Of a DNA stretch of 64,000 bases, positions 44,400-46,760 are shown one piece after another. The DNA is from an uncultured Hyphomicrobiales bacterium (lineage in GTDB: Bacteria; Pseudomonadota; Alphaproteobacteria; Rhizobiales; Xanthobacteraceae). A program made the position numbers and the translations under genes. The notes below the pieces were generated by a model. The model ran no database searches, had not been told where the DNA came from, and was given only the letters and a program-made list of their open reading frames with translations. Each line of letters begins with the position of its first letter. Position 1 is the first letter of the stretch. Location of the stretch: the NCBI GenBank assembly GCA_903839845.1, contig CAIMEA010000193.1, positions 25,533 to 89,532 of the forward strand, written 5' to 3'.

Positions 44400-44774
44400 C
44401 TATTTCTTGCCGTCATCGCCGCTCTCCCGCGCGGAAGCCTGTTGAGCCTTCAGCTGTTGCAGATAATCGTCGAGCCGATCGAGCCGCGCCTCCCACAGTC
44501 TGCGATATTCGGCGAGCCAGTCGTCGACTCCGATCAGCGCCGACGCCTCGATCTTGCACGGCCGCATCTGCGCATCGCGGCCGCGCGTGATCAGGCCGGC
44601 GCGCTCCAGCACCTTGAGATGCCGGGACACCGCCGGCAGGCTGATCTCGAAGGGGGCGGCAAGCTTGGACACCGACGTCTCGCCCAGCGCCAGCCGGGCC
44701 AGGATGGCGCGCCGGGTCGGGTCGGCAAGCGCCGCGAAGGTGGCGCTCAGTCGGTCGGGGGCGGGCTGGATCAT
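44400..44774 (-). CDS. ArsR-family transcriptional regulator
   Basis: LSATFAALADPTRRAILARLALGETSVSKLAAPFEISLPAVSRHLKVLERAGLI. Confidence 0.93.
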   Translation of the reverse strand: MIQPAPDRLSATFAALADPTRRAILARLALGETSVSKLAAPFEISLPAVSRHLKVLERAGLITRGRDAQMRPCKIEASALIGVDDWLAEYRRLWEARLDRLDDYLQQLKAQQASARESGDDGKK

Positions 44775-44868
44775 TATAGTTAGCCGTTCGGTTAAATAAC
44801 CTTGAGGTTAAATATAAGCCCCCGATAACCCAGTCAAGGCAACTCTGGCGGAATTTTTTAGCTGGAGT

Positions 44869-44896
44869 ATGATTGCAATGAAATCAATGCAATCAT
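44869..44896. promoter_or_regulatory. Inverted repeat upstream of the RHH-CoaBC fusion (candidate operator)
   Basis: atgattgca-N10-tgcaatcat, perfect 9-bp arms, ending 14 nt before ATG 44911. Confidence 0.5.
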
Positions 44897-44910
44897 TCCA
44901 TAGCTGACTC

Positions 44911-46308
44911 ATGGCATCTCTCACCGTTCGGCAAATCGACGACGCCTTAAAACAGCAGCTGCGGCTGCGCGCGGCGCGTCATGGCCGTTCGGTCGAGGAC
45001 GAAGTCCGCACCATTCTGCGCGAGGCCGCCGGCGACACCGAGACGCCGCCAACGGCCGGCTCCACCCCGGCGCCGGTCGAAAAACCCGCCGCGGCCAAGC
45101 GTGTCCTGCTGATCATTGGCGGCGGCATCGCCGCCTACAAATCGCTCGACCTTATCCGCCGCCTGAAAGAGCGCGGCCTCACGGTCCGCTGCATTCTCAC
45201 CAAGGCGGCGGAGGAATTCGTCACGCCGTTGTCGGCCGGCGCGATCACCGGCGAGCGCGTCTTCACCGATCTGTTCGATCCGGCGCATGAATTCGATGTC
45301 GGGCATATTCGTCTGGCGCGAGAGGCCGAACTGATCGTCGTTGCGCCGGCCACCGCCGACCTGATGGCGAAAATGGCCAACGGCCTGGCCGGCGACCTCG
45401 CCACCGCGGTACTGCTGGCGACGAAAGCGCAGATCCTGCTGGCGCCGGCGATGAATCCGGCGATGTGGGCGAACAGGGCGACGCAACGCAATCTGGCGCA
45501 GCTCATCGCCGACGGAGTCGCGACGATCGGTCCGAACGAAGGCGAAATGGCGGAGAGCGGCGAGCGCGGTTTTGGCCGCATGGCCGAGCCGCTGGAGATT
45601 GCCGCCGGCGTCGAGAGGATTCTCAAATTACGCGACGCGCCGAAGCCGCTGAAAGGCAAGCGCGTGCTGGTCACCGCCGGTCCGACGCATGAGCCGATCG
45701 ATCCGGTGCGCTACATCGCCAATCGTTCGTCGGGCAAGCAGGGCTACGCCATCGCCATTGCCGCCGCCGGCGCGGGCGCCGACGTCGTCCTTGTCAGCGG
45801 GCCGGTGAATTTGCCCAGGCCGCAAGGCGTCACCGTGGTCGATGTCGAATCGGCGCGCGATATGCTGGAAGCCGTTGAGCGCGCGCTGCCCGCCGATGTC
45901 GCCATCTTTGCCGCCGCGGTCGCCGACTGGCGCGTCGCCAATGCCGGCGCGCAGAAGATCAAGAAGCAGGCCGGCAAGACGACGCCCGATCTGGCGCTCA
46001 CTGAAAATCCCGACATTCTTTCAACGATCGCGCATCGCGCATCGGGACGCCCCGGCCTGGTGATCGGCTTTGCCGCCGAAACCGAGAACGTGCTCGCCAA
46101 CGCGAAGGCCAAGCTCGCCAAAAAAGGCTGCGACTGGATTTTGGCCAACGATGTGTCGCCGGAAACCGGCATTATGGGCGGCGACCGCAATACGATACAG
46201 CTGGTGACGGCGTCGGGTGTCGAAGCCTGGCCGCCGCAAAGCAAGGAAGACGTCGCCGCGACTTTGATTGCGCATATCGCGGCCGCGCTCAACGGAGAAC
46301 AGAATTGA
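44911..46308 (+). CDS. coaBC: N-terminal ribbon-helix-helix (FitA/VapB-like) domain fused to phosphopantothenoylcysteine decarboxylase/phosphopantothenate-cysteine ligase
   Basis: [40 protein letters not shown] + linker + [27 protein letters not shown]…[30 protein letters not shown]. Confidence 0.93.
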
Positions 46309-46760
46309 CCGTCGCCAATGTCCGCATCGCGCGTCTGCCGCACGCGCAGGATCTGCCGTTGCCGTCCTATCAAACCGCGCTTGCCGCCGGGTTCGATTTA
46401 ATGGCCGCCGTCGCTGCCAACGCGCCGGTCATCATCGCGCCGGGCGCGCGCGCCTTGGTGCCGACCGGAATTGCCATTGCGCTGCCGGAAGGATTCGAAG
46501 CGCAGGTGCGGCCGCGTTCGGGTCTGGCGCTGAAGCAAGGACTGACCGTGCTGAATACGCCGGGCACGATCGACGCCGACTACCGCGGTGAAATCCAGGT
46601 CATCCTCATTAATCACGGCAACGAATCGGTCGAAATCGCGCGTGGCATGCGCATTGCCCAGATGGTCGTCGCAACCGTGACGCGCGCGACCTTTCTTGAA
46701 GTCATTTCGCTTGATGAAACATCTCGCGGAATAGGTGGGTTTGGATCCACCGGAGGTTGA
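46305..46760 (+). CDS. dut: dUTP diphosphatase
   Basis: [60 protein letters not shown]. Confidence 0.97.

Follow-up and report, generated by a model that had tools for sequence, protein, structure and literature searches.

The question raised by this locus is what role is played by a perfect inverted repeat that lies immediately before the start codon of a gene encoding a FitA-like RHH domain fused to the bifunctional enzyme CoaBC. In the 64,000-nucleotide stretch of DNA analysed here (the window), the repeat, ATGATTGCA-ATGAAATCAA-TGCAATCAT, occupies positions 44869–44896 on the + strand, with perfect 9-bp arms and 14 nt from its end to the ATG at 44911, exactly as the original prediction had described it. 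The same prediction took it for a single repeat around an N10 spacer; the arms stand as described, but the spacer itself contains another box, TGAAATCA. Written out in full, the element is TGATTGCA-a-TGAAATCA-a-TGCAATCA, i.e. three 8-bp boxes with a 9-bp period. The features are as follows.

44869–44896, strand not assigned: candidate whole operator; perfect inverted repeat, three boxes, 9-bp period
44870–44877, + strand: box 1, TGATTGCA, exact 8-mer
44879–44886, + strand: box 2, TGAAATCA, inside the N10 spacer, in the 9-bp period
44888–44895, + strand: box 3, TGCAATCA, box 1 in inverted orientation
44911–46308, + strand: RHH-CoaBC gene, 465 aa; FitA-like RHH fused to bifunctional CoaBC
44914–45030, + strand: RHH DNA-binding domain, residues 2–40; helices 11–24 and 28–40 in the model
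45034–45084, + strand: flexible linker, residues 42–58; pLDDT <50
45097–45612, + strand: CoaC domain (phosphopantothenoylcysteine decarboxylase, flavoprotein); PF02441, residues 63–234
45649–46203, + strand: CoaB domain (phosphopantothenate-cysteine ligase); PF04127, residues 247–431
46305–46760, + strand: dut (dUTPase); its TTG start overlaps the stop of coaBC; PF00692, 2.3e-31

With as many as 3 mismatches allowed, a scan of the window yielded no other match to the repeat (0 expected in shuffles). In the 4.04-Mb genome it is the only close match, the next best sites having 3 mismatches, and a search for further operators at up to 2 mismatches found none there. Across the genus, identity is 89% over the 26-bp array, compared with 39% for the 30 nt to its left and 28% for the 22 nt to its right; the middle box of three congeners reads TGGTATCA, TGGCATCA and TGTTATCA. 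Because the array is conserved in congeners with the middle box included, the N10 spacer is part of the element. The array in the window's strain lies 20 nt closer to the ATG than in congeners. Separately, two 16-nt repeats at 44781–44812, TAGCCGTTCGGTTAAA and TAACCTTGAGGTTAAA, precede the divergent ArsR-family gene and are likely an ArsR operator.

The fused protein

Three Pfam families match RHH-CoaBC, namely PF22513 (6.5e-17; 61.7 bits, above the curated cut-off of 27), PF02441 (4e-31) and PF04127 (4e-71), and the CoaBC equivalog profile TIGR00521 matches at 1.2e-119 with 399.9 bits, exceeding its cut-off of 219.7. The AlphaFold model (mean pLDDT 84) consists of two helices, a disordered linker and the CoaBC body. 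The catalytic motifs of CoaBC are kept: the His (HIRLA), PAMN, and the Asn and Lys of CoaB. The CoaC flap Cys (ACGE in other CoaC) is absent (window positions 45544–45582, residues 212–224); this absence is common to the fused and most of the unfused Hyphomicrobiales enzymes compared and thus is not tied to the fusion. The overlapping dut is likely on the same transcript as coaBC.

Among PDB structures, the RHH part matches only the FitA chains 2bsq and 2h1o (E about 0.01), and the best match of the enzyme part is 6TGV, the CoaBC of M. smegmatis, which has no RHH domain and for which DNA binding is not reported there. M. smegmatis CoaBC is a dodecamer inhibited by CoA thioesters (PMC7794376). 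The RHH belongs to the family of FitA-FitB, a VapBC-type system (PF22513), and its basic strand residue, R7, aligns with R7 of FitA; FitAB of Neisseria gonorrhoeae binds its own promoter DNA via RHH dimers (PMC3920265, PMC3384007). Unlike FitA-FitB, the fusion joins the RHH to a metabolic enzyme: neither an adjacent toxin, with no PIN gene between the operator and CoaBC, nor the C-terminal toxin-binding tail of an antitoxin is present, residues 42–58 being a low-confidence linker into CoaC. The DNA differs as well, with boxes in a 9-bp period here compared with one 36-bp segment for FitA-FitB.

The nearest working precedent is trifunctional PutA of E. coli and Salmonella, in which the RHH at the N-terminus of a flavoenzyme makes the enzyme a repressor of its own gene (PMC5293562); RHH-CoaBC has the same N-terminal arrangement on a flavoenzyme. 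It is nevertheless not a PutA, given that Pfam finds only RHH, CoaC and CoaB and neither PRODH nor P5CDH. PutA acts in proline oxidation, with a membrane/redox switch and a putA-putP regulon, whereas RHH-CoaBC would control only one gene, to judge by the scan.

Box pairs at fused and unfused coaBC genes

RHH-CoaBC fusions were gathered from the window's own family (101 genomes) and from named genomes; they come from Bradyrhizobium, Afipia, Rhodopseudomonas and Xanthobacteraceae MAGs and, in Rhizobiaceae and relatives, from Phyllobacterium, Mesorhizobium, Zhengella and Bartonella. In total, 93 distinct upstream regions of RHH loci were compared with 56 upstream regions of unfused coaBC. One of the 93 (L142) turned out to be an antitoxin gene in its own right, next to the remnant of a toxin, leaving 92 fusions, and a contig end truncates another (L147). 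Within 150 nt upstream, TGATTGCA occurs at 77 of the 93 RHH loci compared with none of the 56 unfused genes (0.26 expected in shuffles), the loci being related and their counts therefore not independent. Box spacing peaks at 9 bp (46 inverted and 13 direct cases) and at 18 bp (21 inverted). When scored with a half-site matrix, pairs reach the highest values at period 9, with other periods not comparable, and at this period 89/93 loci outscore all 56 unfused controls, which becomes 88/92 for fusions since L142 is not a fusion.

The expectation that the repeat would recur in relatives carrying the fusion was borne out: a box pair lies no farther than 150 nt from the start in 88 of the 92 RHH-CoaBC loci of Xanthobacteraceae and Rhizobiaceae, and the other four (L021, L028, L035 and L116) have 9-bp box pairs 156–291 nt upstream. 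Under strict box letters, a 9-bp pair within 350 nt is found at 82/92 fused genes and at 0/56 controls. The distance from array to start ranges from 7 to 85 nt and is larger in the four outliers. In these four, the operator is separated from the coaBC start by repeat-like DNA (e.g. cgtcatgcccggc...), which looks like an insertion that displaced it. Another motif, TGATAGCA, which the original prediction gave as the FitA half-site, precedes 26 of the fused loci and none of the unfused ones; in Bradyrhizobium, TGATTGCA-type and TGATAGCA-type pairs stand next to each other.

Of 19 FitA-like antitoxin genes that stand alone at other places in the family, 16 also have boxes of the same form within 100 nt, where shuffling would give 1.7, and in two of these 16 the period is 9 bp. 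Thus, it is the RHH domain, and not CoaBC, that the boxes accompany: unfused coaBC genes lack them and stand-alone fitA genes have them. R7 is 100% conserved among 89 distinct RHH sequences and is invariant in the fusions; the linked antitoxin of one locus (L143) has H at position 7 and no boxes at all. Together, the identity of the array above that of its flanks, the invariance of R7 and the loss of boxes where R7 is lost point to continuing selection. The only PF22513 protein found in the genome is RHH-CoaBC itself, and, given the conserved box pairs and the invariant R7, the site is very probably the operator of RHH-CoaBC.

The exact paired-box pattern is present in 35 of the 101 family genomes, in 32 of them beside the RHH gene; the three occurrences away from an RHH gene (G060, G065 and G095) are close to chance, which we estimate at about one. 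The exact 17-bp form did not occur in any of the 117 genomes scanned from the order's other families. The control looks local. In G065, a lone exact TGATTGCA-N-TGCAATCA (L176, G065:C1:1399620) sits between an ORF and the converging mutM; coaBC lies ~4.3 kb downstream, and the site is either chance or a relic.

Probable origin at the ubiB-coaBC junction

In several relatives, the gene order is ubiB-fitA-fitB(PIN)-coaBC, with all genes pointing the same way; matches to PF22513 and PF01850 confirm the antitoxin-toxin pair, and the 9-bp array precedes fitA at L141, L146, L089, L083, L085 and L098. The adjacent PIN toxin gene is present at L141; L142 has the full antitoxin followed by only the last residues of the toxin (TGIEVIDPW); at L143, a toxin remnant is left in which the first and last residues are joined; and most other loci of the ubiB-coaBC kind carry the direct RHH::CoaBC fusion. 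The simplest series, and the probable one, runs from toxin-antitoxin operon through toxin loss to fusion, with the operator kept throughout, in a direction read from these extant sequences. A fitA-fitB operon would have been located between ubiB and coaBC, its toxin would have been lost, and the DNA-binding domain of the antitoxin would have become joined to CoaBC. In the window's genus, other genes now lie between ubiB and coaBC.

The RHH tree, built on 42 columns, is compatible with one as well as with several fusion events. In this tree, L072 groups with the toxin-antitoxin antitoxins L083 and L085, and its boxes, TGCTAGCA/TGCATGCA, are the same as those of L083; these two observations suggest that L072 may represent a second fusion event. 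Different PIN toxin-antitoxin pairs are located at the same ubiB-coaBC junction in L083, L085, L098 and L089, of Rhizobiaceae and relatives, as if this junction repeatedly receives or keeps toxin-antitoxin modules.

Probable autogenous repression and its alternatives

The original prediction that the repeat is a candidate autoregulatory operator is supported, the box pairs tracking the RHH fusion: very probably, the site would serve RHH-CoaBC in repressing its own coaBC-dut transcription. The RHH domain would dimerise and bind the 8-bp TGNNNNCA boxes upstream of its own start codon, presumably one dimer per box, with boxes 9 bp apart. RHH dimers of MetJ and the omega repressors align on regularly spaced 7–8 bp boxes; here, the period is 9 bp, the protein is an enzyme, and the box letters differ. 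Transcription of coaBC would fall as the enzyme accumulates, a negative feedback on enzyme level, and the overlapping dut would probably be repressed along with it. A CoaBC dodecamer could present up to six RHH dimers on one particle, which suggests avidity on the three-box array. Furthermore, the inhibition of CoaBC by CoA thioesters in mycobacteria raises the possibility of a CoA-dependent switch, whereby DNA binding may be coupled to CoA status. Counted against this explanation are a scan near the array that found no sigma-70-like promoter, the widely varying distance from array to start, the lower count of 82/92 under strict box letters, the relatedness of many loci, and the toxin-antitoxin-linked loci L144 and L145, which have one box only. 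We nonetheless have high confidence in the explanation as a whole, that of an autogenous repressor whose operator and RHH were probably inherited from a fitA-fitB operon.

Four other explanations rank low. The repeat might act in the mRNA as a hairpin, either an attenuator or a shield of the start region, and the RNA does fold into one, with a 9-bp outer stem (region z −2.05). However, the letters are conserved and not pairing alone, the boxes also occur as direct repeats (9 bp, ++, 13 cases) and at variable distance to the start, no T-run terminator was found on the + strand, and the boxes are absent from unfused coaBC, so that an RNA element is extremely unlikely. An unrelated transcription factor could regulate coaBC from this site, for example the product of the ArsR-family gene that adjoins the repeat divergently (44400–44774, − strand); we consider this very unlikely, because the end of ubiB, and not ArsR, is upstream in most array-bearing relatives, separate ArsR-type repeats exist, and the array occurs before stand-alone fitA genes but not before unfused coaBC.

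Another possibility is that a short upstream ORF couples translation to coaBC, the repeat being incidental. A 12-codon ORF (MIAMKSMQSFHS), with GGAG just before it, runs from the ATG at 44869 to the TGA at 44907, covers the operator and ends 3 nt short of the coaBC ATG, which here, unlike in congeners, has no clear Shine-Dalgarno. This frame is nevertheless lost in congeners, L006 having no ATG there and L007 reading on without that stop, and the ORF leaves the conserved arrays unexplained; it could be a strain feature alongside the operator, and as the sole explanation it is hardly credible. Finally, the operator might be an inactive relic of the toxin-antitoxin operon, an origin that is visible in the intermediate loci. 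Against this, the array stayed 89% identical in the genus while its flanks diverged to 28–39%, R7 is invariant, and the boxes are gone where R7 was lost, all of which renders a relic highly improbable.

Returning to autogenous repression by RHH-CoaBC, we found no report of such a fusion in the 5.39 million open-access texts covered, and judge it to be a variant of the autogenous enzyme-repressors that is new in the literature searched. More tentatively, it is conceivable, although we lean against it, that the fusion defines an enzyme-repressor class of its own, hitherto undescribed: a toxin-antitoxin control element, now domesticated, by which a CoA-synthesis dodecamer would sense CoA/acyl-CoA (or flavin state) and set its own transcription, and which would have arisen more than once at ubiB-coaBC. 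If autogenous repression is true, the DNA-binding half of a toxin-antitoxin operon has passed, together with its operator, to an enzyme of central metabolism, and living relatives still show the intermediate stages, which would give a concrete answer to the fate of some chromosomal toxin-antitoxin modules. It would also predict direct transcriptional self-control of CoA synthesis in many Hyphomicrobiales, including Bradyrhizobium and Mesorhizobium, acting at the step that is inhibited by CoA thioesters in mycobacteria (PMC7794376).
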